A DNA stretch of 64,000 bases from Telmatactis stephensoni (taxonomy: Eukaryota > Cnidaria > Anthozoa > Actiniaria > Isophelliidae), in NCBI GenBank assembly GCA_029948255.1, contig JALIZF010001460.1:62001-126000 (forward strand). The letters run 5' to 3'. This document shows positions 2,569 to 48,832 of this stretch, piece by piece (positions within the stretch are counted from its first letter, which is position 1; each line of letters begins with the position of its first letter). The notes under the pieces are model-generated. The model did no database searches, had not been told where the DNA came from, and worked only from the letters and a program-made list of their open reading frames with translations. The position numbers and the translations under genes are program-made.

Positions 2569-5500
2569 ATGGCGAAAGACTGCTTTGACGATCCATCTTA
2601 TGACAACCCAAAGGAAGAGGCAGGATTCTTGTCTCTTTTGTCAATTTCGTGGCTAAACAGACTTCTAAAAACTGGATATGAGCGTCCATTGCAAAACGAT
2701 GACTTGTATAGTCTATCCAGCGAAAATATGGCAGAGAATATTGCAGAGCAGATAACAGATGCTTGGGAGAAGGAGCTCAAAGCTGCAAACAAGCAAAAAC
2801 GTCAGCCTCGACTTTGGAAAGCATTGGTTCGAATTGTTTCCTGCCAACAGTGTGTGCTCATCCTTTTCCTAAAACTTTTTGCAGAATCAATGGAAATTTT
2901 AATCGCAATTACACTCTGGTTTTACTTGAAGATGCTTAGCGATGAAACCTATCAAGTTCACCACGCAGCATTAGTTGTGTCAGTATTTTCCTTTGGGATG
3001 CTGACATTTCTTCTGTCATTCAGGCACCATAGGTATCAGTCACAAATAACTGGAATGCGCATTAGGATAGCCCTGATAGAGTGTGTTTATCATAAGGTAT
3101 GTCTATTTCAGTTAGTTGAATATATACATGGATTGGTTGTAGCTAAACCTTGGACTATTGTGCGAGCACAATTTTTGACATGGCTGGAAACAACAAGCAG
3201 CCAGCCAGCCAGCCCCTTTACGAAGTTAGCCCTCCCCTTCGAGTGAGTGTCACGTACGGCTAACATGTAAGTACTTGGTGTATGCAACACCAAGTGGATC
3301 GATAGATGATACGTCCATTTGCTGTTTCGTACACCAATAATGATGTACTTACCATCCGCCATATGCTCATGACCCATTATTCAAGATAAGTCGGAACCCA
3401 AGTCAACAGCTGATTGGTTGATGATTTTGATTTTTGATTGATCCAAATCACACAAAGAGGGGTTTGAATCTGGCTAGGGAGAGGGTTTTCATTTTCATTA
3501 ATGTCGAAGCACAAAAACAAAAGAAGAAAAAACTGTTTTTCTTCAACTGCCTAGCACGCGAGCCTTTTTTGACACTTCCGATGTACTGCGAGTCTTATAA
3601 ATCAATTAACCTCCTTAAAAAGACATCAGTTGCGTGATAAGGTTATTATACTAATAAATGTTTACTCGACGTACCTAGGCGTTGACTTCGGAAGGCTTTT
3701 GGAAGGGTAGGGTTTGTGCTGGATTTCTTCCAGAATCCTCAAAGCCTGGGTCTAACCGGCGCGACACGTGCTGCTGCCATGTGCCCAAATCTGCACACAG
3801 CACTGATGCCAGGTTTTCTTTTTCTATTTATAAAAATACAAAATTGCTTTTGAGCACATTCAGTGTTCATTTACATGCACTGATCAAATGTTTCCAAAAG
3901 TGCGCGCGTGTATTGTGTACACGTTTGCAGTGCGTATACGCGTTCTTCGACCAAAGTGGGTGTTGTATATTGGTCACTTGTTAAAATCGTATATATCATA
4001 TTCCCCTTTATATAACCCTTAGATTATAAAAACAAGACGATACATCCTCTCAGATGTTAAATTTGGACATATACAAAATCTGGTGTCCAACGATGTGGAC
4101 AAAGTTCAAGATCTGGTCCTCAAGTTCACAAATCTGATAGCAGCACCATTTGTCATTGTTGCTTGCGTTATGTCTTTGTGGTTATTGGTTGGTTGGCAGT
4201 CACTCGCTGGCATCAGTTTTGCTGTAGTTCCTTTAGCAGCTACTATACTTGTGGCCGGACCTTTTACAAAATTGCGAAAAGACCAGGCTCGGTTAACAGA
4301 TACACGACTCGGTATTGTTCACGAGATAATCTCAGGTATACGAGCTGTCAAGGCGTTTGCTTGGGAAGGAGATTACATAAATAAAGTGAAAACTGTCAGA
4401 GGGTAAGCCAAGCCTAAAACTGATTTAAACGCTGATATCAAAGACTGTTTAAGTAAATATATATCCTATTAATAATTTCACCATTCTACAGCACAGTAAA
4501 ATAATATCGGAAAAAATATCGGTTGTTGCTACCATTGCATGGAATCCCTTTGTTATTTCAAGTTTCTTTTGATCTTACAGCTGGTTGTGTTTTATTAATA
4601 CTCTTTCAACTAATATGATGAATCTCATTTCCAACTTTTCAGCAAGGAAACAAGAGTGGTATTTCTCAAAAGCATGTTTTACTCCATCAATACTACACTT
4701 GCCATATGCGCAGAAGCTGTAACTACGCTGATATCAATTATAGCCATGATTTATGCTGATTTCCAACAATTATCTCCTGTTGATATTTTTACAACCTCAA
4801 TCATAGCAGGTATATTGAACAACGCCATGATTGGGTACGTGAATTTTGGATACAGAGTGGTTCAAGAGGCAATTGTATCATTTGATAGAATTGAACGGTT
4901 TCTACAATCTGGTTGTGACTCTTCCTATTTTTCAAATGGACGAGCCCCTAAAGTACAACCGTTAGCGATTATTGATCACCAGAAAAAAATAGATTCTAGA
5001 AAGGAGGACAGTTTCATCAGCTTACAATATCTATCAGCAACTTGGAATAACTGTAAATCAAGTATCCTTCACGACATTTGTCTGGAAATAAAACAAAATG
5101 AGTTGGTCATCGTCAATGGACCTGTTGGTAGCGGCAAAACGTCACTGCTAATGGCCATTCAGAGTGAAATTCCCGTTGCCAGAGGCAGTATATCCACTAA
5201 AGGTCAAATTGCTTACGTTTCTCAAATTTCATGGATATTCTCGGGAACCATTCGTGATAACATCGTGTTTGGTAAGCTATATGATGAAAAGAGGTACCAA
5301 AGGATTCTGGATGTGTGCGACCTTCTGGAAGATATCAAAATGTTTCCAAAAGGAGATCTTAGTGCCATTGGGCAACGAGGCATCACTTTGAGTGGAGGTC
5401 AACGTGCACGTTTAAGTTTAGCAAGAGCAGTATACGCAGATGCCGACATCTTTCTATTTGATGACCCACTAAGTGCAGTCGATGCAAAGGTTGGAGAGTG

Positions 5501-8500
5501 CATTTTTAAGAAGTGTATTTGTGACGAATTGTCGAGCAAACTACGAATTCTAGTCACACACCGACTAAAATACCTTCCTAATGCTGACTGTATAGTTATA
5601 ATGAAAAACGGCTATGTTGACTTCCAAGGATCGTACCAGGACATGAGAGATGAAGATTTAATGCAACTGAAAGTTTCTGTAGATGTTACCAGCAGAAAGA
5701 GTGTCCTTGTTGATGATCTTAAATCGGAAAATAAATATTTGCTGGACGATGACGATCAGGAAGCTAAAGATTTCGCAGAAGAAAAAGAGGAAAAATCAGC
5801 TGGTCGTGTGACATGGCAATTGTATTGCTTGTTCTTCAAAGCTGGTTCGCAAGCCACTATCTTGCTCTTGTTTGTCATATATTACTTGGTTGTGGAAGGT
5901 AGGATTAGTGTATAATAATGTCAGTTGTAAATGACCAAAAGCGTTTCCTCGATTTTTGAATACCACCCTCCCCCGGCTGCTATAAGGTCCCTCTCCCATT
6001 CCCTTAAGTTCAGTTTATGAGACCATAACCTACATTAGCTCACACTACAGGGCGTTGTGAACTCTCAAAAATGTAATACTCTGAACTGCAGTCCACAAAT
6101 CAGTATTGCATACTATGCTATTTAACAATTAGACCTCGAGGGCGAATGGATTATGAGGCAGTAACCCATGAGGCTGTGTAGGCCGACAATTGGCTAATGA
6201 ATCGTAATGAGGCCGAGAGGTCTAATTGTTTTCGTATAAACCTACTAATCAGGTCAAATAAATGGGTAAAGTAAATGGATATGTAAATTTTATATTCAGT
6301 TGAAATCATTTATTTTTCTCAAAACCGGCACTTCTCGCTACTAGTGTACATGTACTGTCACGAATAGACCTCTAGTAGAGTAGCCAATCAGATCGAATGC
6401 AGGATTGGAGAAAGACCGTTTATATACTACTAAAATGATGTAGTTGTGCAGTATTTCATTCTTTTTTCGAATCCGGATCAGTTTTAAATAATCCCCCCTG
6501 CTGAAATGAGCTTTTCAATAAATTCCCCGAGGCTTATCTTATTCGGCCGTTTAAGCTAATTAAAATAAAACTCATAAAAAACAGTCTTGCTGATTTCCAG
6601 TCGTCAAATAATAATTTTAATTTATTTCATACATATGAATTTGATTGGTGGAAACCACCACAATAACGAACTGTTAATGAACCAGGCAAATCATAAATTC
6701 TTGTGATTGAGTAGTATGTGATGCCGATTAACATTTGTTCTCTTTCTAGCATTTCTGTATTCTCCAAACTTGTTTCAGTCACGACTGGCACACATGTCCC
6801 ACGAGCAACAAAGTCGTCCTAGAATCATTGGTACCTACGTCGGGTTGGTCATAGGTGCAGTGCTCTTGTGCGGAATTCGAGATCTTCTTGTGCATTATTT
6901 GGTAATCAGATCGTCAAGAAATCTTCACGCTAAAATGACAGAGGCTGTGATAAAATCGCCAGTGCTTTTCTTTGACACAAACCCACTTGGTCGAATCATG
7001 AACCGCTTTTCAAGTGACACAGGAAATCTGGATGATATGCTTCCAGCTTTTATGGACACTGCGTTATCTCATGGCATGAAAATATTTTCAGTTACATTTG
7101 TAGCAGTATACGTAAATGTCTGGTTTATATTAGTTCTAGTTCCGTTAACCATTTTGCTATTTTACTACACTCGCTACGTTATCAAAAACTCGCGTGAAAT
7201 ATATCGTCTGGAAGCTATAAGTCGCAGTCCTGTTTACGCACATATTTCAGAAACAGAAAGAGGTTTGGAGGTGATTCGATCATTACAATCAGTCGACGAG
7301 TTTACAGAAAAGTTTCACAGGTGAATATCATTGTTAATTGTTCTTTTTATTGGGTATTACGTGAGGACCCAGTCATATTTCTCAGTTTATCATTTATACA
7401 CCTCACAACGTTATCGAACGTTTACCATCGTTTGCATAATTATGTGTCTTGCCAGACTAAAGTCTTGACTGGGAATTGGTCCATAGGACATCTAGACAGA
7501 AGCGGGGTATTCACCACAAACACTTTCTTGGATTCACGCTAGCCTATCGACGAATATACTTTTGTCCGCCATTTTGAATTGGGGCAAACGTGACAAGATC
7601 TATAGAAATCTGGACCACTTTGACTCCCATAACTCGGCTCAATTTGGAAGTTGGAATTTTAAAAATTAAACTTTTAATAATCAGCAGACATGCATACCAT
7701 TTGTGGGACAGAAAATACGACCAATGTAGGTAATTTAACTACCTTTTACAAGGCGATCTTTTTACAAATGATCTTCTAATTTCAAGCTAATTTGCACATT
7801 TACTTACTGAACTTTTTATTTTAAAAACAAAAATCGTATTTTGTCAATTTCCAGCCTTTCAGTAGTTATTATATTAACAGTCATAAATAACAAAGAAAAT
7901 ATCTTTTAAAAAGTGCAAGTTTCTGAGTTACGGAAAGTTATAGTGATCCTGCGGATTTATATAGATTTTGCCGCGTTTTTCCAAATTCGAAATGGTGGAT
8001 GAATTCTTATTAACAGTCTAGACTTTAGGCGTAATTATGCAAATGGTAGTAAGAACCCATTGGCCTCTTTTACGAGATGGTGGCCGTCGTGTCAATTAAC
8101 TTGTAGGACTGCATGTAGCCAAAGGTATCAGAAGTCATAGCATGACAAAAATTCACATTGCTGCTCTTCACTTACTCGTTGTACGTGCTCGTTCCCATTC
8201 CCTGCGAGCAGAGGCAATCTTCCCCACACTTCTACGAGAAGAACCTACGACTGAGTAGCGTGAGGAAACGATTGCTTCAGTGCGCGCAGGGTATCTTTCC
8301 CATATAAGTACCTCACTTTCATACTATTCGACCCAGATCTAGATCTAATATAAAAATTAGGTACTACCTAATAGCGGAGCTCCCATTTCTATGTTCTTGA
8401 TTCAAATGAATTGGGATTCCTGTGTTAATTGCCCCAATTGTAAAGGTCTTGAAAGATGAAAAAGTTGAAATGAAGATTATGAAAATGAAAATTAAGGCAT

Positions 8501-11500
8501 TTGCTTTGGTTTGTATATACTCTCTCCCTTTGGTCTCCTGTGAATTGTATGGGCTTGTAAGCTTGAAGTGACCTTTATTATAGTATATTTCAATATTCAG
8601 ATACACTGTTGAGATTTCATAATTGACTTTGTAGTGGTTCATAATTCTCAGGAATAGAAAGCAAAAATCTCCAAAACCTCATTTCATTGATAGAAATAAT
8701 TAACCCTTTTCAACATCCTGGATATTGCAGAACTACATCTCTTGATTTGCTTGTTTTCACTATATTGTGACATCTTGTTTTTTTTTTTTTTTTGTGGTTT
8801 AGTGTTGTTGTTGTTGTTGTTGTTTTGTTTTGTATTTTTAATGACACACTAGGTGAATACTTGTCTCTTCCAGATTACACTGATAATACAATTTAAAGTG
8901 ATGATAAAAACAGCTACTTGACACAACAAGAAAACAAGGAATTACTGAAGTATTTTCAATTTGCATTTACTAGTAAGGTCTCATATGGGCTCAAGGAGCA
9001 ACTTCATGCTCAATGGTAAAACAACTCTATTTTGCATGCAAATTCTTTCCTTTTTCCTGTCATTAGTCAATCAGTTTCATTAAATTCCAGACCGTTCCAA
9101 ACTTGAACTGTATATACACATTATCCGTGTTGAAATGAGTTCAAAATCAATTTTTTATAAATTTTATTATTAAAAGTAGTGCAAAAAGTTCACTGTAAAA
9201 CAATGTCATTATACATTTATTACTTGAGGGTTTGTCTAAACTTAGCCACAGTTCAACATGCATAAGCGTCTATTTTTTCAAAGTCATCAGTCCCAAATAA
9301 AAGATAAATGATCAAATATAGGTACAACGGACTTTTTGACATCAGATTTTTTTCTCTCAGGGTCTTTACCTTGAAGTGCTTTCCTTGTTGTCTTTCGAAG
9401 CGTAGTCCTCAGTCCTTGTTTCACACTCGATGCAGACGATTCTTAATTTTCAACTTTGGCTAGATTTTTAAGCAGCTTTACTGAAGGCATCTTCACGAAA
9501 CGAAGAATACACAATCCTCAATGACTCATTCCTTATGAGAAGTTTTTTGAAGCTACGAATCCAACTAAAAAGTCGTCCAGTTTTGTAAATGTTCTCTGTG
9601 TCCTTCGTCTTTCGAGCAGTTTTTGAAACGACACCGGGCCCGAAAAAAATTCAAACGTACGGGTTTTTTTTTTGCTTTAACTCGTCAAGATTAGCACCGA
9701 TTAATGATCATGAAAATCGCTAAATTTTTACGAGGTTTTCAGAATGATATTTTTAAGTTTTGCAAGTTTAAAACAGCAAGGAAACTTGTAAATTTTCAGT
9801 TTTCAAAGTGTCAGCGCGCGTCAAGTTGGCGCCAAAAAGCAATCAGCCAATCAGCATCGCGATGTACAGGGACGTATGTATGTACGTACGGACACTGGGC
9901 TTCCTGTGTCGGTCCATGAAAAATCAACTGGATGGGTTACCATTTTTTCTTAGGTATGGTGCTCCGCTCGCGCGGGCCTTCGGCCCGCGCGGGAGCTCCG
10001 CTAATAATTGAGGGAGCAGCATGATAAATTGGTCTAGGCATTGTTCTCGTAATCACGAGATCCAGCATTCGAGTCTAACCTCCATCTCTAGCCCCTCCGG
10101 GCTGGAGTTGATTCTGGACTGAGTTCGACTTCAGCTTCATCACTAGATCATGCTTGTTATGATATATAGCAAACTGGTTTACCACGTTCCATATAGAGAT
10201 TTTCATTAGTTATGTTTGATTCAGAGTTTTTCATTACGATTAACTTTGCAGCGCAAGCTAGTTGCACTAAGCTAGTGCATTTCAACCACAAATCAAACAT
10301 CTGCATTACGATATATTGAATTGCTATATATTTTGATAATTTCAGACTTTTAGATGATAACACCAAAGTTGTGTTCATTCGTATATCTCTACTCCAGTGG
10401 TTTTCTCTCCGCACTGACCTCATTTGTACCTTGTTTGGTATTACCGTAGCTATTCTTGGTGTACTAGTTATTGAGGATGAAGGTAAATATATAGTAACAT
10501 TTCTAACCTAATACAACTTGCGTAGTATCCACCTAAAACATTGGCTGTGATTAAAAAAAACAATTTGCAAATACCCATGCACCACACCGCTGAAAGATCG
10601 CTGACGCGCACTGAAAGTTAGAACCATCTGTAGGCTCTCAACGAATTAGAATACAAATACGAGTATATATAATGTATAATAACAATAGCAGTCATCTCGC
10701 CGTTAACAATGGTTATTAACATGCATGGTAACCATTTAGGTGTTGCGTTTCATCTACGTTAGATTAATTTAATAATCCAAGCTTTCGAGCCAGTCTCCAA
10801 TATATACTGCTTCGCAGTCACCACACGGAATATATAATTATTGGAGAGTATATATTGGAGAGACTGGTCGTTCGCTGGGGACTAGACAAGAAAGAAAACG
10901 AAGCTAGTGTCAGGCTTGGGAAGACCGAAACATCAGCGCTGTCACAACATGTGCTATCTAAAACCCATGAGATCTCTTGGACTGGAACAAAGATAGTGGA
11001 AAGTGAGAACTGCCCCATGCGAAGGAGATGGAAGGAGGCATGGTGTATTGCAAAAAATAAAAACGCTCTATGCAACGGAGACCCTGGCAGGAATCTCCCT
11101 GCTTATTACCTTCCACTATTGAGAAAATAAATTCAGAAACATGTTTTTAGAGCGGAGAGGAACGGTTAAGGGAGGAGGGAGAAATAGCCCCAAAAAAGTT
11201 CTGTAGGAAGGAGGGAGAAAAGAGGCAGAAAAATCGGTTTGGGAGGAGGGAGGAAAACAATTATGAGACGTAGTGAAGGAGAAATGGCCGAAAAAATTAG
11301 AGAGGAGGGAGAAAAATGGCATTAAAATGAGGAGGAAGGATATTGAAATGCCTGTTCCTCTCCGCTCTTTTTATGTAGAGCGCGCGCGGTGTAATTACAT
11401 GCTATGTTTATTCATTTGCTCGAGCTCCATCTATGCGCCTTTAATTTCAAAACGTAAGCAAATTGACCGAATCGAAATATGGCGGCAAATTTGAATAACT

Positions 11501-12638
11501 ATTGTTCTGGACTGACAATCGCTAGCCTCGTGTTCACGTGGAAACACAAAAGCGTTTTCACATGAATGAGAGGCTAGTCAGTATAAAACAATAGTTATTC
11601 AAATTTGCCGCCATGTTTCGATTCGGTGTATGGTTAAAACTCAAATTTCCTGAATGAAGTTAGAGGCCACTGAGCACTTTTTGATTTTGATTTACTTGAC
11701 TTTCAGCTTTAACTGGAATGTTGCTGGCAATTGGATTAAGTGTGATTAAGTTGATAAACTTAGGGGCTCGTAAGGCGTGTGATCTAGAAAACACCATGAC
11801 TTCTGCAGAGCGTATCACAACTTACAGTTCTCTACCCTCAGAGCCAGGCTATAGCAGACAAAAACAACCACCAGACACATGGCCTGACCATGGTATGGTC
11901 AGTATGCAGAATGTGTCTCTACAATATATCCAAGATGGTGTTACTGTACTTAGAAATGTCAACTTGGAAATCCAACCTTGTGAAAAGATTGGAATTGTCG
12001 GTCGTACTGGAGCTGGCAAGTCATCGCTTTTAGCCGCCATTTTACGCATGCCTGAACCTCAAGGCCAGATTCTTATTGATGGGCTCGATCTGAGTACTAT
12101 TAACATCCAGGCCACTCGGAGGGCCATGGCCGTGATACCCCAGGATCCAGTCGTCTTTGCTGGAACTCTCAGGAAAAGCCTCGACCCGTTCCTGCGGTTT
12201 ACGGACGACGAAATTTGGGTAGCGTTAAAACAGGTTCAACTATGTGACAAAATTGCCAGTCTACCAAAACAGCTGGAATGTCAAATAGGAGCATGCGGAG
12301 CTGGCTTTAGCATGGGTGAGCGTCAACTGCTATGTTTGGCCCGAGCATTGCTTCAAAGGTGTCGAATTCTGCTTATGGACGAAGCAACGGCCAACGTTGA
12401 CCTGTATACAGACCAACGAGTTCAGGATGCAATCCGCCACTCGTTTTCTAACTGTACCGTGCTGACTGTAGCACATCGTCTCGATACTATCATGGATTAT
12501 GACAGGGTGGTGGTGATGGATCAAGGCCACGTGGCCGAAGAAGGTGTGCCTATTGTACTCGCAGGAAAAGAAGGAGGATATCTAAATGAACTGTTACAAC
12601 GGAGCACTAATGCTGACTCGAACCTCCAAGAAAAATGA
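2569..12638 (+). CDS. abcc4-like: ABCC4/MRP4-like ABC transporter, 6 exons, 1267 aa
   Basis: Exons 2569-3096, 4023-4402, 4643-5898, 6750-7320, 10346-10482 and 11707-12638 all have GT-AG borders and agree in phase (3804 nt with stop). The product is a full-length plasma-membrane-type ABC exporter of the C family without TMD0: TMD1, NBD1, TMD2, NBD2. NBD1 has Walker A GPVGSGKT (about 462-469), signature LSGGQ (552-556) and Walker B ending FLFDD, with Asp where the catalytic Glu normally sits; this is usual for ABCC NBD1. NBD2 has Walker A GRTGAGKS (about 1056-1063), a variant signature FSMGE (1158-1162) and a normal LLMDE. The start residues (WLNRLLKTGYERPL) match the short-MRP pattern. Exon 2 begins IIKTRRYILSDVKFGHI, which has the length expected before SNDV in MRP4. 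Exon 5 encodes the TMD2 stretch QWFSLRTDLICTLFG. Substrates of this family are organic anions and conjugates; the exact substrate here is unknown. The length is close to that of vertebrate ABCC4. Confidence 0.93.
6124..6230. mobile_element. Small foldback element in ABCC intron 3
   Basis: The ends AACAATTAGACCT (6124-6136) and AGGTCTAATTGTT (6218-6230) are perfect inverted complements over 13 bp and enclose about 80 bp of non-coding sequence. It looks like a MITE. Target duplication is not clear. Confidence 0.45.
9964..10140 (+). repeat. GC hairpin followed by tRNA-derived SINE-like sequence
   Basis: A very GC-rich hairpin with a TTCG loop (about 9966-9996) is followed by a tRNA-like stretch. 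That stretch has an A-box-like TGGTCTAGGC (10030-10039) and a B-box-like CATTCGAGTCT (10067-10077) with spacing typical of pol III promoters. It does not fold into a clean tRNA, so a tRNA-derived SINE is the better reading. It lies in ABCC intron 4. Confidence 0.45.
10793..11130 (+). pseudogene. Penelope-like element 3' remnant (GIY-YIG endonuclease)
   Basis: Reading from 10851 gives YIGETGRSLGTRQERKR, a typical GIY-YIG core. An open frame (10855-11130) then continues with SALSQHVLSKTHEISW and RRRWKEAWCI, resembling the C-terminal part of Penelope-like reverse transcriptase/GIY-YIG proteins, and ends in PLLRK. The two parts are in different frames, so the element is dead. An inverted repeat (about 10793-10810 against 10850-10870) precedes it. 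It sits in ABCC intron 5. The reverse-transcriptase part is absent, as is common for 5'-truncated copies. Confidence 0.6.
11149..11368. mobile_element. Purine-rich MITE with 15-bp terminal inverted repeats
   Basis: AGAGCGGAGAGGAAC (11149-11163) is the perfect inverted complement of GTTCCTCTCCGCTCT (11354-11368). The interior is a purine-rich series of GGAGGGAGAAA-type repeats. It has no coding capacity and lies in ABCC intron 5. Confidence 0.55.
11466..11627. mobile_element. MITE with about 41-bp terminal inverted repeats
   Basis: The left arm starts ACCGAATCGAAATATGGCGG (11466) and runs to about 11506. The right arm (11587-11627) is its inverted complement with one visible mismatch. The centre has a second inverted pair, CTAGCCTC and GAGGCTAG. 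It sits about 80 bp before the last ABCC exon. Confidence 0.65.
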
Positions 12639-19630: not shown

Positions 19631-22600
19631 CTAAACCGATAACAATAGAATTCTGCCCGATGAAAGCATGAGATGATAACAACAGTGAAGAAGATCCAAC
19701 TTAGTGAGTCGACAATTTTTGTGTTTTAGTCCACCTTCACACAAGCTTGGCACATACATTTCTTCGATTATTTCTTCTTCGATCATTGATCTTCCACGGC
19801 CTAGAATCAGCATTGTAAGTTTACAGGTTTCATGTTTTAGGACTTCGCACAGGCATAGTCTACCTGTTTCTGTTATGTTAGCCTTAAGGCTCAGCTTAGT
19901 AAGTTGACAGTTTTTATGCCTTAGGGCTTCACACAGGAATGATATACTGGTTTCATATGATACCTCCTCACCACATAGGCGTAACACAGTCAGTTGACAG
20001 TTCTTGTTTTTGAGTGCTTCACACAAGTCTTTAATACCTTGCTCTGTTGTCTCCAGTTCTAAGTCGGTAAGTTGACAGTTTTTGTTTTTGAGTGCTTTAC
20101 ACAGTTCTGCTACACCTCGATGTGTTATCTTATTACCTCCAAGGAACAAAGATGTAAGACCACAAGGTTTTTCCCAGTCAATTCTTCCAAGTAAAGCTTT
20201 GATACCATAATCTGATATGTTGCATGACCTCAATTTTAAACTGATTTGGGGGCTTCTTTTCTTGCGTAACAGGATCAGCTGTGACCATCCACCGTCACCA
20301 AGTGAATAATTACTATCCAAGTCCAATTGCACTAGTGGATCATGATCGTTCAGGTGTTGCAAATAGTATACAATGCAGGTGCAATCAAGAGGCGTAACAT
20401 CACATCCAGAAAAATCTAAATATCGTTTTTCAAGTTTAGGAGCAGTTTGTTTCATAACTTTTTTATCGTGGAGTTCATATAAATTTCTCAACATCAGCAA
20501 AGCCAACCTCTTCCTGTCAATCGAGTAATATCTTAGGCCGTCATCAAGTGTCGCAATAAAGTAATCTGTGACCCTACCAACATCCTTGCGACCATGGAGT
20601 AACCCCGCTATGAAGTGAATAACAAGGTGCCAGTCTGCAGAAGTATCTTGGATCTTTTTCTTAATGAAATTTACTATTTGCTTAGAATTCATCGTTCTAA
20701 CAATGTGTCTTGCAGCAAGAAATTCTTGTAGTGTGAGATGAAGAAAGCAATATTGAGATGCTCGTGCGATTCCAAAAAGTGGAGCTACTTTGCTGGGCAT
20801 GCTGTTTAGTAAACCACATTTTTCAACTCTGTCGTCAACTTCTTTCTTTTCAAATATCAATCGCTTTTCATGTATTCCTTGCTTTGCTAGAGATCCTAGC
20901 TTTGATAAGTCATTTTCCACAGACTCAGAAAAGACCTGTCCGTCCTCAAGAAAGTCTCTTTCTTGATAATGTGGATGATGTCGAAACAGAAACATTCTTA
21001 GCGCTCCTTTGTAGACATCTGTGAGAGTAGTTGGTAAGGTCACTGATTGGGCCGACTTAACTTGCAATTTGATGTTATACTTTAACAAAGAACAAACAAT
21101 GTTACAAGTGGCAGGAATATAACACAAATACAACAAATTCATGTTAGATTCTATATGAGACCATATCGTGTGTGCTGCGTCAGGATAATCTGTGCAGACT
21201 TTGTTGACATATGACTCAATCTTCTCAGGTGTAAATCCTAAGATTTCTACAACTCTATCAAACCGTACCCCTATAAGACGTTTTACATTATCCGCAGCAT
21301 GGGGTCTTGACGTTGTCACAATTGTCGTCCCAGAAAGTAGTTTCTTTTGTAATAATTTCACGTAGAGTGCAGAAACCGGAATTTTATCAGCTGCAACATT
21401 GAATGCTCTGACTTTTGATTCATCCCATGATAAGTTTTCAAGGTGTTTATACTCATCTAAGCCATCAAATATTATAAGAACCTCCTCAGGCTTATCGACA
21501 ATAGACTGAAAAACAATATCGTCTATTCTTCCTACCGAGTGTTCTGCTCTACTGAGAAACTCCTTGAGCGACATTTGAGACATTGCTTCAGAATTCAAAA
21601 ACCTGAATCGAAATAAAAACAGATACTTGAATGTTTTTGTTGTGTTTTGAAACAGCTTTCCTTGGCTCCATTCACGTACAATTTTAGTGCATAGCAATGA
21701 CTTTCCAATACCTGGACGGCCAATGACAAGAATTCTATTATATGACTTTTGAGCAGAGAGAAACAGCTCTTCTCGACTGCTAATTATAATCGACGTTTCT
21801 GGTGGCTTATGGTATGCGCACAATAGGTCATGTCTGTTTTCCTTAGGGTCGAGTACATGTGTGATTCGTCCAATGCATATAATAAGTTCGATGTATATAT
21901 TGTCGATCGACAGTTGTTCACGGCTGTCACTGTCTTCTGAGGGCGAAGTAGACGTCGGTAGCAATTCCACGATTTCCGTGTTCTCAAGCATTTGTCTTTG
22001 GAGACGTGCTCTATATTGGTTTATCTTTTTAACGGCCATTTTGTTGAAAAAATGTAGTTTGCAAAATTTGGAGTCAAACGTGAAGGTTTTGTCTCGACAG
22101 GCTCTAGCAATCAGGTAGAATATTTCGAGGAACACAAGACATGCAAAAACTATATTCAAACTCCATGCAGCTTTTGCGAAAACATATTTATCTCTAGCGG
22201 CGCCATTTTGGCAGTCGATCAGCATAGATGAATTGGATGAGTGGTGCGTTGTATTTGAATTTAGACTAATTGTACTGTGTTTGGAGCTGAAAATCCACTG
22301 ACAATGAAATTGTGATGGATAATCTAGAAGGTGCCATTTTTGGACGATTGTAAATAAACATCCCAGCACAAACCGAACCAGCAAATGGATCAAGTAGCAA
22401 GAGTACACGCAACAACTTCTTATTTCAAGTGTAGGTTGTGGGTTTTCAGGGTCAGGCATAAGATCTCGTTCGATTTGATCCACTCGAGATTTGATACACA
22501 ACGAATAAATGATACAAACGACAACAAGCGAGGAAAATATCGCAATAATAAACCCATATAATGGAAGAGGTGAGTTATATTTTTCATCATATTGGTCAAG

Positions 22601-22915
22601 ACACCTTGTTTTCAGAAATTCTTTGTCAACTTTGCCATGGCTTTCGCAGCGAAATTTCCTTTGCTCGGAATTTCTTAATTCTGACGTGAGTCCAATAATA
22701 ACTATTCCAGCAAATCCACATCTTAATTCTGACGTGAGTCCAATAATAACTATTCCAGCAAATCCACATATTATCGCAACAACATAACCGTATACACTGA
22801 ACCGTTTAGGTATTATCAGCTCTCCTTGAAACACGTTTCCATTACACTCGTGATCTAGTGAGCATGTTGTGGAGGCACAGGCAGGAGCAAAAAGCTCCCA
22901 TACCTGCAAAACCAC
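19631..22915 (-). CDS. NLR copy 1: 4-TM channel-like N terminus + NACHT + LRR, about 1094 aa
   Basis: Single-exon gene. In order: a four-TM N-terminal module with cysteine-bearing extracellular loops (see copy 2); a linker ending in QRQMLENTEIVELLP; a NACHT NTPase with Walker A GRPGIGKS and Walker B VLIIFDGLDE; a NACHT-associated helical region; then ribonuclease-inhibitor-type LRRs (LCEALKNKNCQLTDLELETT pattern). The expected product is a membrane-anchored cytosolic nucleotide-binding innate receptor. Two oddities sit at the 5' end. A 2-nt insertion (about 22820-22825) puts the ATG conserved in copies 2 and 3 (here at 22842) out of frame, so the open frame needs an upstream ATG at 22915, next to a CAG|GTATGG donor-like site. 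A 48-bp tandem duplication doubles 16 residues of TM1. The C terminus (after CCYHL) differs because it runs into the LRR fragment. Reading frame otherwise intact. Confidence 0.88.
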   Translation of the reverse strand: MVLQVWELFAPACASTTCSLDHECNGNVFQGELIIPKRFSVYGYVVAIICGFAGIVIIGLTSELRCGFAGIVIIGLTSELRNSEQRKFRCESHGKVDKEFLKTRCLDQYDEKYNSPLPLYGFIIAIFSSLVVVCIIYSLCIKSRVDQIERDLMPDPENPQPTLEIRSCCVYSCYLIHLLVRFVLGCLFTIVQKWHLLDYPSQFHCQWIFSSKHSTISLNSNTTHHSSNSSMLIDCQNGAARDKYVFAKAAWSLNIVFACLVFLEIFYLIARACRDKTFTFDSKFCKLHFFNKMAVKKINQYRARLQRQMLENTEIVELLPTSTSPSEDSDSREQLSIDNIYIELIICIGRITHVLDPKENRHDLLCAYHKPPETSIIISSREELFLSAQKSYNRILVIGRPGIGKSLLCTKIVREWSQGKLFQNTTKTFKYLFLFRFRFLNSEAMSQMSLKEFLSRAEHSVGRIDDIVFQSIVDKPEEVLIIFDGLDEYKHLENLSWDESKVRAFNVAADKIPVSALYVKLLQKKLLSGTTIVTTSRPHAADNVKRLIGVRFDRVVEILGFTPEKIESYVNKVCTDYPDAAHTIWSHIESNMNLLYLCYIPATCNIVCSLLKYNIKLQVKSAQSVTLPTTLTDVYKGALRMFLFRHHPHYQERDFLEDGQVFSESVENDLSKLGSLAKQGIHEKRLIFEKKEVDDRVEKCGLLNSMPSKVAPLFGIARASQYCFLHLTLQEFLAARHIVRTMNSKQIVNFIKKKIQDTSADWHLVIHFIAGLLHGRKDVGRVTDYFIATLDDGLRYYSIDRKRLALLMLRNLYELHDKKVMKQTAPKLEKRYLDFSGCDVTPLDCTCIVYYLQHLNDHDPLVQLDLDSNYSLGDGGWSQLILLRKKRSPQISLKLRSCNISDYGIKALLGRIDWEKPCGLTSLFLGGNKITHRGVAELCKALKNKNCQLTDLELETTEQGIKDLCEALKNKNCQLTVLRLCGEEVSYETSISFLCEALRHKNCQLTKLSLKANITETGRLCLCEVLKHETCKLTMLILGRGRSMIEEEIIEEMYVPSLCEGGLKHKNCRLTKLDLLHCCYHLMLSSGRILLLSV
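22674..22769 (-). repeat. Exact 48-bp in-frame tandem duplication in TM1 of NLR copy 1
   Basis: 22674-22721 and 22722-22769 are identical. Each encodes CGFAGIVIIGLTSELR, so the first transmembrane segment and the start of loop 1 are repeated. Copies 2 and 3 have a single unit. Confidence 0.9.
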
Positions 22916-26650: not shown

Positions 26651-29600
26651 TCAGTAACGCTTGAGATGATAACAACAGTGAACAAGGTCCAACTCAGTGA
26701 GTTCACAATTTTTGTATTTTTGTCCTTCACACAAGCATGACACATTCTTTCTTAGGATCAGTGATCTTTTATGGCCTAGAATCAGCCCAGTAAGTTTGCA
26801 GTTTTCATGATTTAGGACTTCGCACAGGTATAATCTACCTGTTTCTGTTATGTTAGCCTCAAGGCTCAGCTCAGTAAGTTGACAATTTTCATGTCTTAAG
26901 GCTTCACACAGGAATGATATACTGGTTTCATGTGATACCTCCTCACCACATAGGCGTAACACGATAAGTTGACAGTCTTTGTGTTTGAGTGCTTCACACA
27001 AGTATTTTATACCTTGCCCTGTTGTCTCCAGTTCTAACTCAGTAAGTTGACAGTTTTTGTTTTTGAGTGCTTTACACAGGTCTGCTACACCTTGATGTGT
27101 TATCTTATTACCTCCAAGGCACAAAGATGTAAGACCACAAGGTTTCTCCCAGTCAATTTTTCCAAGTAAAGCTTTGATACCATAATCTGATATGTTACAT
27201 GAACTCAAATGTAAAATTTGGGGGCTTCTTTCTTTGAGTAGCAGAGCCAGCTGTGCACATCCCTCGTCACCAAGTGAATAATTATTATCCAAGTCCAATT
27301 GCGCTAGTGGATAATCCATGTGTTGCCAATAGTATACAATGCAGGTGCAATCAAGAGGCGTGATATCACAACCACCAAAAACCGGATATTGTTTTTCAAA
27401 TTTAGAAGCAGCTTGTGTCATAACTTCATCATCGTGGAGTTCATACAAGTTTCTCAACATATTCAGCGAAACCACCGTCCTCCTGTAAAACGAGTCCGAT
27501 TTTAGGCATTCATCAAGGGTTGCAATAAAGTAATCTGTGACTCTACCGACACCCGTGCCACCATGGAGTAATCCCGCTATGAAGTGAATAACAAGGTGCC
27601 AGTCTGTAGAAGTATCGTTGATCTTTTCCCCAATGAAATTCACTATTTGCTCAGAATTCATCGATCTAACAATGTGTCTTGCAGCAAGAAATTCTTGTAG
27701 TGTGAGATGAAGAAAGCAATATTGAGATGTTCGTTCGATTCCAAAAAGTGGAGCTTCTTTGCTGGGCATGCTGTTTAGTAAACCACATTTTTCAACTGTT
27801 TTGCCAACTTCTTCCTCTTCAAATATCAATCGCTTTTCATGGATTCCTTGCTCTGCTAGACATCCTAGCTTTGATAAGTCATTTTCCACAGGTTTAGGAA
27901 AGATCTGTCTGTACTTAAGAAAGCCGGGTCTTTCTTGATAATGTGGATGATGTCGAAACAGGAAAATTGTTAGCGCTCCTTTGTAGACATCTGTGAGAGT
28001 AGTTGGTAAGGTCATTGGTTTGGCCGAATTAACTTGCAATTTGATGTTATACTTTAACAAAGAACAAACAATGTTACAAGTGGCCGGAATATAACACAAA
28101 TACAACAAATTTATGTTAGATTCTATATGAGACCATATCGTGTGTGCTGCGTCAGGATAATTTGTGCAGACTTTGTTGACATATGACTCAATCTTCTCAG
28201 GTGTAAATCCCAAGATTTCTACAACTCTATCAAACTCTACTCCTTTAAGACATTTTACATTGTGCGCAGCATGGGGTCTTGACGTTGTCACAACTGTCGT
28301 CCCAGAAAGTAGTTTGTTTCGTAATAATTTCACGTAGAGTGCAGAAACCGGAATTTTATCAGTTACATCATTGATTCCACTGACTTCTGATTCATCCCTT
28401 GATAAGTTTTCAAGGTGTTTATACTCATCCAAGCCATCAAATATTATAAGAACCTCCTCAGGCTTATCGACAATAGACTGAAAAACAATATCGTCTATTC
28501 TTCCTACCGAGTGTTCTGCTCTACTGAGAAACTCCTTTAGCGACATTTGAGACATTGCTTCAGAATTCAAAAACCTAAAGCGAAATAAAAACAGATAATT
28601 GAATGTTTTTGTTGTATTTTGAAGAAGCTTTCCTTGGCTCCATTCACGTACAATTTTAGTGCATAGCAATGACTTTCCAACACCTGGACGACCAATGACA
28701 AGAATGTTATTGTATGACTTTTGAACAGAGAGAAACAGCTCTTCTCGACTGCAAATTATAATCGACGTTTCTGGTGGCTTATGGTATGCCCGCAATAGCT
28801 CGTGTCTGTTTTCATTAGGGTCGAGTTCATATGTGATTTGTCCAGTACATATAATAAGTTCGATGTATATCTTGTCTATCGGCAGTTGTTCACGGCCGTC
28901 ATGGACCCCGTCATGATCACTGTCTTCTGAGGGCGAAGTAGACGGTAGCAATTCCACGATTTCCGTGTTCTCAAGCATTTGTCTTTGGAGACGTGCTCTA
29001 TAATGGTCTGTTTCAACGGTCATTTTATTGAAAAAATATAGTTTGTAAAATTTGGAGTCAAACGTGAAGGTTTTGTCTTGACAGGCTCTAGCAATCAGGT
29101 AGAATATTTCGAGGAACACAAGACATGCAAAAAATATATTCAAACTCCATGCAGCTTTTGCGAAAACATATTTATCTCTAGCGGCGCCATTTTGGCAGTC
29201 GATCAGCATAGATGAATTGGATGAGTGGTGCGTTGTATTTGAATTTAGACTAATTGTACTGTGTTTGGAGCTGAAAATCCACTGACAATGAAATTGTGAT
29301 GGATAATCTAGAAGGTGCCATTTTTGGAAGATTGCAAAGAAAATTCCCAACACAAATCGAACCAGCAAATGGTTCAGGTAGAACCAGTAAACACGACGAG
29401 TTCTGACTTCTGGTGTAGGTTGTGGGTTTTCAGGGTCAGGCGTAAGAGCTTGCCCGATTTGGTCCACTCGAGATTTAATACACAAGGAATAAATGATGCA
29501 AACAGCAACAGGCAATAAGAATGTCGCGATAATAAACCCATATAATGGTAGAGGTGAGTTATACTTTTCATCATATTGGTCAAGACACCTTGTTTTCAGG

Positions 29601-29776
29601 AAGTCTTTGTCAACTTTGCCATGGCTTTCGCAGCGAAATTTCCTTTGCTCGGAATTTCTTAAATCTGACGTAAGTCCAATAATGATTGCTCCAGCGAGCC
29701 CACATATTATAGCAACAACATAACCGTATACACTGAACCGTTTAGGTATTAACAGCTCCTTGAAACACGTTTCCAT
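26651..29776 (-). CDS. NLR copy 2 (intact): 4-TM channel-like N terminus + NACHT + LRR, 1041 aa
   Basis: Single exon; start METCFKELLIPKRF. TM1 is about residues 16-36. Loop 1 has Cys49 and Cys64 (EQRKFRC, TRCLDQYDEKY). TM2 is about 78-99 and TM3 about 133-151. Loop 2 has Cys164 and Cys194 (DYPSQFHCQW, LIDCQNGAARDK) with two N-glycosylation sequons at N180 and N187. TM4 is about 207-229 (LNIFFACLVFLEIFYLIARA). This topology places both termini in the cytosol and resembles connexin/innexin/pannexin-type channels. NACHT follows, with Walker A GRPGVGKS (362-369) and Walker B VLIIFDGLDE (442-451), then ribonuclease-inhibitor-type LRRs from about 830 to the end. NACHT-LRR proteins are ATP/GTP-driven sensors that oligomerise. 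The channel likeness is my inference from motifs and needs a profile search. This is the reference copy: no frameshift, conserved start. Confidence 0.93.
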   Translation of the reverse strand: METCFKELLIPKRFSVYGYVVAIICGLAGAIIIGLTSDLRNSEQRKFRCESHGKVDKDFLKTRCLDQYDEKYNSPLPLYGFIIATFLLPVAVCIIYSLCIKSRVDQIGQALTPDPENPQPTPEVRTRRVYWFYLNHLLVRFVLGIFFAIFQKWHLLDYPSQFHCQWIFSSKHSTISLNSNTTHHSSNSSMLIDCQNGAARDKYVFAKAAWSLNIFFACLVFLEIFYLIARACQDKTFTFDSKFYKLYFFNKMTVETDHYRARLQRQMLENTEIVELLPSTSPSEDSDHDGVHDGREQLPIDKIYIELIICTGQITYELDPNENRHELLRAYHKPPETSIIICSREELFLSVQKSYNNILVIGRPGVGKSLLCTKIVREWSQGKLLQNTTKTFNYLFLFRFRFLNSEAMSQMSLKEFLSRAEHSVGRIDDIVFQSIVDKPEEVLIIFDGLDEYKHLENLSRDESEVSGINDVTDKIPVSALYVKLLRNKLLSGTTVVTTSRPHAAHNVKCLKGVEFDRVVEILGFTPEKIESYVNKVCTNYPDAAHTIWSHIESNINLLYLCYIPATCNIVCSLLKYNIKLQVNSAKPMTLPTTLTDVYKGALTIFLFRHHPHYQERPGFLKYRQIFPKPVENDLSKLGCLAEQGIHEKRLIFEEEEVGKTVEKCGLLNSMPSKEAPLFGIERTSQYCFLHLTLQEFLAARHIVRSMNSEQIVNFIGEKINDTSTDWHLVIHFIAGLLHGGTGVGRVTDYFIATLDECLKSDSFYRRTVVSLNMLRNLYELHDDEVMTQAASKFEKQYPVFGGCDITPLDCTCIVYYWQHMDYPLAQLDLDNNYSLGDEGCAQLALLLKERSPQILHLSSCNISDYGIKALLGKIDWEKPCGLTSLCLGGNKITHQGVADLCKALKNKNCQLTELELETTGQGIKYLCEALKHKDCQLIVLRLCGEEVSHETSISFLCEALRHENCQLTELSLEANITETGRLYLCEVLNHENCKLTGLILGHKRSLILRKNVSCLCEGQKYKNCELTELDLVHCCYHLKRY

Positions 29777-35145: not shown

Positions 35146-38100
35146 TCATGTTATGACTTCGCACAGGTATAATCTACCTGTAACTGTTATGTTAGCCTTA
35201 AGGCCCAACTCAGTAAGTTGACAATTTGTATGCCTTAAGGCTTCGCACAGGAATGATAAACCGGTTTCATATGATACTTCCTTGCCATATAGGCCTAACA
35301 TAGTAAGTTGACAGTCCTCGTGTTTGAGTGTTTCACACAAGTCCTTTATACCGTGCCCTGTTGTCTCCAGTTCTAACCAAGTAAGTCGACAGTTACTTGT
35401 GTTTGAGTGTTTGAAACAAGTCTAATTACACCTTGCCCTGTTGTATTCGCAGTAAGTTGACAGTTTTTGTTTGTGAGTGCTTTACACAGGTCTGCTACAC
35501 CTTGATCTGTTATCTTATTACCTCCAAGGAACAAGTATGTAAGTCGGCAAGGTTTTTCCCAGTCAATTCTTCCAAGTAAAGCTTTGATACCATAATCTGA
35601 TATGTTACATGACCTCAATTCTAAAATTTTGGGACATCTTTCTTTGAGAAGCAGGGCCAGCTGTGCACATCCACCGTCACCAAGTGAATGATTATTATCC
35701 AAGACCAATTTCTCTAGTGGATGATTCAAGTGTTGCAAATAGTATACAATGCAGGTGCAATCAAGAGGCGTGATATCACATCCAAGAATAGTTAAATGTT
35801 GTCTTTTAAATTTAGAAGCAACTTGTCTCATAACTTCTTTATCGTGGAGTTCATACAAGTTTCTCAACATCAGCAAAACCAACCTGTTCCCGTCAGTTGT
35901 GTAATATGTTAAGCAGTCATCAAGGGCCGCAATAAAGTATTCTGTGACTCTACCGACATCCTTGCGACCATGACCATGGAGTAATCCCGCTATGAAGTGA
36001 ATAACAAGGTGCCAGTCTGTAGAAGTATCGTTGATCTTTTTCTTAATGAAATTTACTATTTGCTCAGAATTCATCGCTCTAACAATGTGTCTTGCAGCAA
36101 GAAATTCTTGTAGTGTGAGATGAAGAAAGCAATATTGAGTTGCTCGTGCGCTTGCAAAAAGTGGAGCTTCTTTGCTGGGCATGCTGTTTAGTAAACCACA
36201 TTTTTCAACTCTTTTGCCAACTTCTTTCTTTTCAAATATCAATCGCTTTTCATGTATTCCTTGCTCTGCTAGATATCCTAGCTTTGATAAGTCATTTTCC
36301 ACAGATTCAGCAAAGATCTGTCCGTCCTCAAGAAAGTCTCTTTCTTGATAATGTGGATGATGTCGAAACAGAAACATTCTTAGCGCTCCTTTGTAGACAT
36401 CTGTGAGAGTAGTTGGCAAGGTCATTGATTGGGCCAAATTAACTTGCAATTTGATGTTATACTTTAACAAAGAACAAACAATGTTACAAGTGGCTGGGAT
36501 ATAACACAAATACAACAAATTTATGTTAGATTCTATATGACACCATATCGTGTGTGCTGCGTCAGGATAATCTGTGCAGACTTTGCTGACATATGACTCA
36601 ATCTTCTCAGGTGTAAATCCTAAGATTTCTACAACTCTATCAAACTCTACTCCTTTAAGACATTTGACATTGTCCGCAGCATGGGGTCTTGAAGTTGTCA
36701 CAATTGTCGTCCCAGAAAGTAGTTTGTTTCGTAATAATTTCACATAGAGTGCAGACACCGGAATTTTATCAGTTACATCATTGAATCCACTGACTTCTGA
36801 TTCATCCCTTGATAAGTTTTCAATGTGTTTATACTCATCCAAGCCATCAAATATTATAAGAACCTCCTCAGGCTTATCGACAATAGACTGAAAAACACTA
36901 TCGTCTATACTTCCTACCGAGTGTTCTGCTCTACTGAGAAACTCCTTGAGCGACATTTGAGACATTGCTTCAGAATTCAAATACCTGAATCGAAATAGGA
37001 ACAGATGATTGAATGTTTTTGTCGTGTTTTGAAACAGCTTTCCTTGGCTCCATTCACGTACAATTTTAGTGCATAGCAATGACTTTCCAATACCTGGACG
37101 ACCAATGACAAGAATGTTATTGTATGACTCTTGAGCAGAGAGAAACAGCTCTTCTCGACTGCTAATTATACTCGACGTTTCTGGTGGCTTAAGGTATGCG
37201 CGCAATAGCTCGTGTCTGTTTTCTTTAGGGTCGAGTTCATGTGTGATTCGTCCAGTACATATAATAAGTTCGATGTATATGTTGTCTACCGACAGTTGTT
37301 CACTGTCTTCTGAGTGCGAAGCAGACGGTAGCAATTCCACGGTTTCCGTGTTCTCAAGCATTTGTCTTTGGCGACGTGCTCTATAATGGTCAATCTTTTT
37401 ATCGGTCATTTTGTTGAAAAAATATAGTTTGCAAAATTGGGAGTCAAACGTGAAGGTTTTGTCTTGACAGGCTCTAGCAATCAGGTAGAATATTTCGAGG
37501 AACACCAGACATGCAAAAAATATATTCAAAATCCATGCAGCTTTTGCAATAACATCTTTATCTCTAGCGGCGCCATTTTGGCAGTCGATCAGCATAGATG
37601 AATTGGATGAGTGGTGCGTTGTATTTGAATTTACAGTAATTGTACTGTGTTTGGAGCTGAAAATCCACTGACAATAAAATTGTGATGGATAATCTAGAAG
37701 GAGCCATTTTTGGAAGATTGCAAATAAACTTCCAAACACAAATCGAACCAGCAAATGGATCAAATAGGAACAGTACACGCGATGAGTTCTTATTACTGGT
37801 GTAGGTTGTGGGTTTTCAGGGTCAGGCGTAAGATCTTGTTCGATTTGGTCCACTTGAGTTTTGATACAGAAGTAATAAGTGATACGAACAGCAACAGGAA
37901 ACGAGAATGTCGCAATAATAAACCAATTTAATGGTACAGGTGAGTTATACTTTTCATCATATTGGTCAAGACACCTTGTTTTCAGGAAGTCTTTGTCAAC
38001 TTTGCCATGGCTTTCGCAGCGAAATTTCCTTTGCTCGGAATTTCTTAAATCTGACGTAAGTCCAATAATGATTGCTCCAGCGAGCTCACATATTATAGCA

Positions 38101-38162
38101 ACAACATAACCGTATACACTGAACCGTTTAGGTATTATCAGCTCCTTTAAACACGTTTCCAT
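35146..38162 (-). pseudogene. NLR copy 3: intact TM and NACHT, frameshifted LRRs (929 aa open part)
   Basis: The start is the same as copy 2 (METCLKELIIPKRF, from 38162). The four-TM module is complete with the same loop cysteines. NACHT has Walker A GRPGIGKS and Walker B VLIIFDGLDE, and the first LRRs are present. The frame then leaves the LRR pattern after KNCQLTANTTGQGV and stops at 35373. The LRR sequence resumes in another frame (35146-35340, LCEALRHTNCQLTELGLKAN) and is broken again by a 2-nt deletion after CEV. At least two single-base insertions near 35395-35440 cause the first break. This is either a decaying gene or a functional receptor with a shortened LRR. Homology to the other units stops at about 38209, so this copy has no FReD partner. 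Confidence 0.85.

Positions 38163-40409: not shown

Positions 40410-48832
<8,423 letters not shown>

Follow-up and report, generated by a model that had tools for sequence, protein, structure and literature searches.

A predicted connexin-related module at the head of anthozoan membrane NACHT-LRR proteins

What might a NACHT-leucine-rich repeat protein (NACHT-LRR, or NLR) do with an N terminus that crosses the membrane several times? The question is raised by a locus of the actiniarian Telmatactis stephensoni, within a 64,000-nucleotide stretch of DNA (contig JALIZF010001460.1, positions 62,001 to 126,000 of the forward strand; hereafter the window), where the minus-strand open reading frame (ORF) 26651-29776 encodes a 1041-residue protein. 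In the passages covered here, a 2016 study describes actiniarian NLRs with three to five N-terminal transmembrane domains as one anthozoan clade, possibly membrane-bound (PMC5094078). The Telmatactis protein, an anthozoan NACHT-LRR with several N-terminal transmembrane segments, falls within the definition given in those passages, and proteins carrying its N-terminal module are probably the same as the published group.

Here, we compare this module with known channel families through sequence profiles and predicted structures, which together point to a connexin-related domain. Our favored reading, to which we assign a probability of roughly 0.6, is that the protein is a membrane NLR of anthozoans with a subunit of a connexin-related large-pore channel as its N-terminal effector, the assembly of NACHT opening the pore.

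The window holds three minus-strand reading frames (19631-22915, 26651-29776 and 35373-38162) that are tandem copies of one protein, each combining a four-transmembrane (TM) module, a NACHT domain and LRRs. In the 1041-residue protein, the four hydrophobic segments peak at about residues 18-36, 82-100, 132-150 and 214-232; loop 1 contains C49 and C64, loop 2 contains C164 and C194, and the only N-glycosylation sequons in the first 300 residues, N180 and N187, both lie in loop 2. The NACHT domain (expectation value (E) 3.1e-28) is followed by a C-terminal part whose LRR-type match is ribonuclease inhibitor, an LRR protein (3.5e-16), and this order is the NLR architecture. Within NACHT, the motifs GRPGVGKS and IIFDGLDEY, which we take to be Walker A and Walker B, are intact by eye. 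An earlier note made from the letters alone had listed the four segments, the paired cysteines, certain connexin-like words in the loops and TM4, the confinement of sequons to loop 2 and a clean NACHT and LRR, and each of these is present in the sequence.

Profiles of the module retrieve connexins. Among 177635 PDB sequences, and with E allowed up to 10, connexins accounted for 15 of the 16 matches to a profile of 12 aligned N-termini and for 17 of the 18 to a profile of 17 N-termini (best E 7.5e-4); no pannexin matched in these searches, although at least 31 pannexin sequences were present beside at least 34 connexin sequences. The top connexin in both the PDB profile lists and the Foldseek lists is Cx31.3, whose structure was solved as a hemichannel. 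Scanned singly against Pfam at the same threshold, 13 of the 17 N-termini matched PF00029 (Connexin), the best at 2.1e-5, and any other family matched at most four. When an alignment of eight members was reversed as a control, no connexin came up in Pfam or in the PDB, where the matches were two phage tail fibre rows.

The signal extends to proteins resembling P0027, a relative from Paramuricea clavata, which we take to be an octocoral. P0027 itself matches Pfam Connexin at 5.6e-5, as do ten of ten octocoral-type proteins (5.9e-5 to 1.2e-7), which were picked from 21 rows already bearing a precomputed Connexin domain. Profile-profile alignment by HHalign against five connexins gave 94.7% probability over 188 columns for the hexacoral-type set (score 58.4; best of 100 shuffles, 25.4) and 91.3% over 174 columns for the octocoral-type set (50.7; best of 100 shuffles, 26.6), these types being assigned by similarity to the window protein (22 rows) and to P0027 (121 rows), respectively. 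All rows together scored 53.9 versus 28.7 for the best shuffle. Against single sequences, five connexins scored 18.8 to 50.2, compared with 14.0-17.6 for pannexin-1 and 11.3-17.5 for reversed controls. In a HMMER shuffle test (5000 shuffles each, with those that HMMER left unreported omitted from the denominators), the real hexacoral-type score was reached by 0 of 4946 shuffles for Cx26 and 0 of 4393 for Cx31.3, and that of all rows by 10 of 4953 and 1 of 4137.

The HHalign columns place C49/C64 on Cx43 C54/C65 and C164/C194 on Cx43 C187/C198, so that the module's cysteines correspond to the outer two (first and third) of the three in each connexin loop, with the middle one missing. The middle cysteines of the two connexin loops are disulfide partners in connexin structures; their loss from both loops would therefore remove exactly one disulfide. 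The earlier note had read two cysteines per loop as more like innexins and pannexins, which proved misleading, given this correspondence and the control-level scores of pannexin-1.

Several results weigh against a connexin relationship. The window module scores 16.1 bits, below the curated Connexin cut-off of 31.3, which P0040 alone passed (32.2) among the ten octocoral-type proteins scanned. A Pfam scan of ten relatives at E up to 1 found Connexin in six and not in the other four. Cx50 alone scored 18.8-19.8 in HHalign, barely over controls, and in the HMMER shuffle test the octocoral-type set did not stand out (85 of 4917 shuffles for Cx26, 66 of 4050 for Cx31.3). An octocoral-heavy profile of 15 N-termini, expected to strengthen the PDB result, weakened it instead: connexins made up 13 of its 17 matches with a best E of 0.75, and two thymidylate synthase rows ranked above them and two hormone-receptor rows below; here, too, no pannexin matched. 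Single-sequence comparisons are thus at the edge, and the connexin case rests on family profiles and structure. Because three-cysteine loops were not found, with two conserved cysteines per loop instead, and because the window protein lies under the curated cut-off, we describe the module as connexin-related by profile and predicted fold and do not file it as a connexin.

The same results bear on convergence, in which the four-TM fold would be a connexin look-alike without common ancestry with chordate connexins. Identities are low (12-18% in the listed structural alignments, 15-17% in the HHalign profile alignments), some profiles yield a weak sequence link, and, in the part of PMC8769644 covered here, a de novo origin in early chordates is stated for connexins, searches of non-chordates having confirmed no connexin and found no connexin-like protein save one unconfirmed sea urchin transcript. 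However, the sequence signal singles out connexins and leaves aside pannexin-1, whose fold is related, both of two diverged sets lead to connexins by profile-profile alignment, the cysteine positions agree, and octocoral P0027 and hexacoral-type rows match Pfam Connexin separately. We consider convergence quite unlikely.

Structure prediction gave a concordant picture. A first AlphaFold2 model of the module was poor (predicted local distance difference test (pLDDT) 63.5, predicted template modelling score (pTM) 0.56), and its 50 listed Foldseek matches comprised 48 connexins and two pannexin-1 entries; a better model (pLDDT 86, pTM 0.78) matched connexins in 50 of the 50 listed. With a second aligner, the matches listed were connexin, LRRC8 and pannexin rows only for the first model, and connexin and LRRC8 rows only, with tied Z scores, for the better one. 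The module is thereby predicted to have a connexin-type, or large-pore-channel, fold. The earlier note's suggestion of a large-pore-channel-like module resembling connexins is thus upheld by the Pfam, PDB profile, HHalign and Foldseek results.

The LRRC8 matches raise the possibility that the channel is primary and the NLR part regulatory, for example in stress- or volume-gated ATP release, with NACHT serving as an energy or nucleotide sensor and not as part of a pathogen receptor. The tied LRRC8 chains align past TM4 to residues 253-262, and the architecture, a channel followed by cytosolic repeats, is shared. An intact NACHT and a tandem array with varying LRR length speak against such a role; arrays of this kind are typical of recognition receptors. 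We view this alternative as very unlikely.

Other families fared poorly as identities for the module. Innexins, compared by Pfam only, gave no match at E up to 10, and pannexin-1 stayed at the level of reversed controls in HHalign. Tetraspanin matched one of 17 members (E 1.5), and weak matches to IL12p40_C (4/17, best 0.0083) and UPF0542 (4/17, best 0.0093) were judged to be chance. Pfam scans of the module at E up to 10, the only comparison made for CALHM and claudin, matched neither of these, nor an LRRC8-type family.

To examine conservation we aligned 152 proteins (149 found by searching and the three window copies), of which 143 rows span the module; nine non-spanning rows were omitted. 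Every one of the 143 rows has C64, C164, C194 and E223, and 142 have C49 and R140; each of the 143 also passes a hydropathy test for the four TMs. Loop 2 carries a sequon in 143/143 rows and loop 1 in 4/143. In two octocoral-type proteins, P0139 and P0143, loop 2 is very short, spanning 10 residues with both cysteines counted; this spacing is close to that of connexins, and the sequon is nonetheless kept. The pattern is consistent with a topology in which the membrane separates both termini and NACHT from the cysteines and glycan sites, and as the sequons sit in loop 2, the termini and NACHT would be cytosolic and the loops extracellular. The outcomes that the earlier note had named as fatal, no large-pore fold match or a wrong topology, were looked for; fold matches were found and the topology fits.

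This conservation helps to weigh a model in which the connexin-like bundle, its pore function lost, would do no more than anchor the protein in the membrane and serve as a platform for assembly, signalling passing through NACHT-LRR and membrane partners. With E allowed up to 1, a Pfam scan of the window proteins found no CARD, PYD, TIR or Death effector domain, so the partners could be external. Yet what is conserved belongs to the channel fold (the cysteines and strands of the loops, the TM3 arginine and the TM4 glutamate), and the 143 rows keep four TMs and two loops with cysteines, more than a plain anchor would require. On balance a mere anchor seems unlikely, if still a serious contender.

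The loop-2 sequon likewise bears on whether these proteins form true cell-to-cell gap junctions under NLR control. The connexin fold and loop layout would suit such a role, but the sequon is universal in the alignment, and loop glycans block docking in pannexins according to the part of PMC8769644 covered, which also names innexins that bear sites of this kind and couple cells all the same. We find gap junctions highly improbable.

How widespread is the fusion? A search with residues 1-260 returned ten proteins 40-50% identical to the query, all ten with NACHT, among them proteins from Desmophyllum pertusum and Exaiptasia diaphana (P0001; a laboratory anemone, presumably the same animal as the Aiptasia pallida of the 2016 study). 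The 12 aligned N-termini retrieved 19 shorter proteins at E up to 10, including P0027, which in turn found 189 proteins at E up to 1; among the best 120 of these 189, precomputed annotations list NACHT (PF05729) in 120 and Connexin (PF00029) in 21. The same N terminus, which the earlier note had suggested seeking on other cnidarian NLRs, thus heads NACHT proteins across Anthozoa. It could be argued that a gene-model or assembly artefact joined a connexin-like gene to an NLR, and one copy in the window is indeed damaged at its start. Set against this are an uninterrupted ORF, three tandem copies and relatives on contigs of many different lengths, and because NACHT occurs in 10/10 relatives and in the best 120 of 189, we regard an artefact as refuted for practical purposes.

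The window protein is 28-33% identical to six octocoral-type proteins in the module and 31-36% in the NACHT region, the two parts diverging in step. In trees of the window protein and 17 relatives (18 were chosen and one, missed by the Walker pattern, was dropped), module and NACHT separate the two types alike at the midpoint root, although in the NACHT tree the octocoral-type side is poorly supported (0.243). As both parts diverge in step and both trees split the types alike, the sequences suggest that the fusion predates the separation of the hexacoral- and octocoral-type lineages. A broader proposal, to which we would give somewhat less than an even chance, is that a connexin-type domain existed before the hexacoral/octocoral split and was fused there to NACHT-LRR, that NACHT assembly gates its pore without an adaptor, and that chordate gap junctions derive from the same ancient family and did not arise de novo. 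The finding bears on the origin of connexins, held to be de novo in chordates in the part of PMC8769644 covered. It also bears on how NLRs act outside vertebrates: a receptor with its own large-pore channel, if real, would have no need of an adaptor and would represent an immune effector of a new kind.

Within the window, the copies at 35373-38162 and 19631-22915 are 84% and 83% identical to the 26651-29776 protein, respectively. All three had been said to keep the features of the module, and this holds for the loop cysteines and sequons but not for every other part. The 35373-38162 copy has an intact module and stops within the LRR at 929 residues. In the 19631-22915 copy, the DNA reads a 2-base insertion shortly after the homologous ATG, whose frame stops at once; because of this insertion and a duplication in TM1 (see table), the copy is probably a damaged gene. 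The ratio of nonsynonymous to synonymous substitution rates (dN/dS) for the module ranges from 0.36 to 0.70 over the three pairs, with changes too few to show more than mild purifying selection; the passages covered of PMC5094078 give an average of 0.32 for transmembrane NLRs.

How could such a protein work? A pore gated by NACHT is plausible, and the best fit to the features above would be a glycosylated, non-docking hemichannel opened by NACHT assembly. About six subunits would come together as a ring, in the plasma membrane or a different one, and NACHT-LRR would project below it into the cytosol in the way that LRR domains hang under LRRC8. On sensing a ligand through the LRR, NACHT would switch to an ATP-bound, assembling form, and this assembly might either gather the subunits or twist the TM helices through the conserved helix after TM4, a possible coupling element to NACHT, thereby opening the pore. 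Ion flux, ATP release or cell death could follow, while the loop-2 glycan would keep the protein a hemichannel by preventing docking with a neighbor.

The linker between TM4 and NACHT (about 28706-29059, minus strand) is conserved in hexacoral- and octocoral-type proteins; its RH is invariant in a 13-row alignment and RHE nearly invariant in another. It had no Pfam match in the scan of the window proteins, and it may be a coupling element.

Elsewhere in the window, plus-strand exons of an ABC transporter occupy 4656-12638, with ABC_tran matches in the frames 4656-5915 (2.4e-18) and 11718-12638 (6.7e-27); by its layout the transporter is presumably of ABCC type. A plus-strand frame of 270 residues at 40628-41440 is rich in Cys and His and has no Pfam match at 0.001, and a long TA-type simple repeat at 45077-45382 reads (IY)n in one frame.

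Table 1. Coordinates in the window of the NLR genes and of the parts of the 1041-residue protein
Feature	Position	Strand	Details
Main gene	26651..29776	-	single uninterrupted ORF, 1041 aa; connexin-like module, NACHT and LRR
Connexin-like four-TM module	29027..29776	-	residues 1-250
TM1 helix	29639..29731	-	residues 16-46, preceded by a short N-terminal helix (2-8); AlphaFold2 model
Extracellular loop 1	29546..29638	-	residues 47-77; C49 and C64, helix 57-72; alignment and model
TM2 helix	29444..29545	-	residues 78-111; model
TM3 helix	29315..29395	-	residues 128-154; R140 and Q151 near-invariant; alignment and model
Extracellular loop 2	29183..29314	-	residues 155-198; two strands, C164 and C194, sequons N180 and N187
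TM4 helix	29078..29182	-	residues 199-233; invariant E223; alignment and model
Post-TM4 helix	29033..29059	-	residues 240-248; D240 and F243 nearly invariant, K251 just after
NACHT domain	28163..28705	-	residues 358-538; PF05729, 3.1e-28
NLRC4_HD2-like helical domain	27416..27709	-	residues 690-787; under curated cut-off
LRR region	26651..27379	-	about residues 800-1041
Tandem copy	35373..38162	-	929 aa, same architecture, early LRR end
Tandem copy	19631..22915	-	1094-aa frame from GTG; reading frame disrupted near the start when compared with the other copies
In-frame tandem duplication	22673..22768	-	16 residues, inside TM1 of the 19631-22915 copy

Among known systems, the module shares with connexins (PF00029; Cx31.3/GJC3, Cx26, Cx43 and Cx46) four TMs, a short N-terminal helix, loop cysteines, a profile match and the predicted fold; it differs in having two cysteines per loop in place of three, a glycan site in loop 2, a fusion to NACHT-LRR and an occurrence in Anthozoa. 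LRRC8 volume-regulated anion channels likewise pair a large-pore four-TM domain with cytosolic LRRs, and their structural Z scores tie with those of connexins, but they lack NACHT, their LRRs being joined directly to a pannexin-like domain, whereas in the window protein NACHT lies between. Innexins and pannexins have two cysteines per loop and loop glycan sites, and pannexin-1 supplied two of the 50 Foldseek matches listed for the first model; the module nevertheless carries no sequence signal of theirs. In plant resistosomes and in bacterial NLR-like defence proteins with TM effectors, NLR assembly is thought to make or open a membrane pore, the pore part being unrelated to connexins.

The closest published proteins are the actiniarian NLRs of PMC5094078, which share the N-terminal TMs, the NLR architecture and the anthozoan host. 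N-terminal TM segments on NLRs are thus already described there, and the new part is the connexin identity, by which the 'transmembrane NLRs' of anthozoans, so far unexplained, would acquire a name. The main text of that study uses neither 'connexin' nor 'channel' nor 'gap junction', and octocorals are absent from the passages covered. Nor is connexin mentioned in the main text of a survey of cnidarian receptors (PMC8260672) or of PMC10236652, and among the matches listed from open-licence papers, we found none linking connexins to anthozoan NLRs. In vertebrates, NLRP3 has connexin hemichannels upstream of it in a shared pathway, the two being separate proteins, as described in the part of PMC10536814 covered here; where that pathway employs two proteins, the Telmatactis locus would unite both kinds in one molecule.

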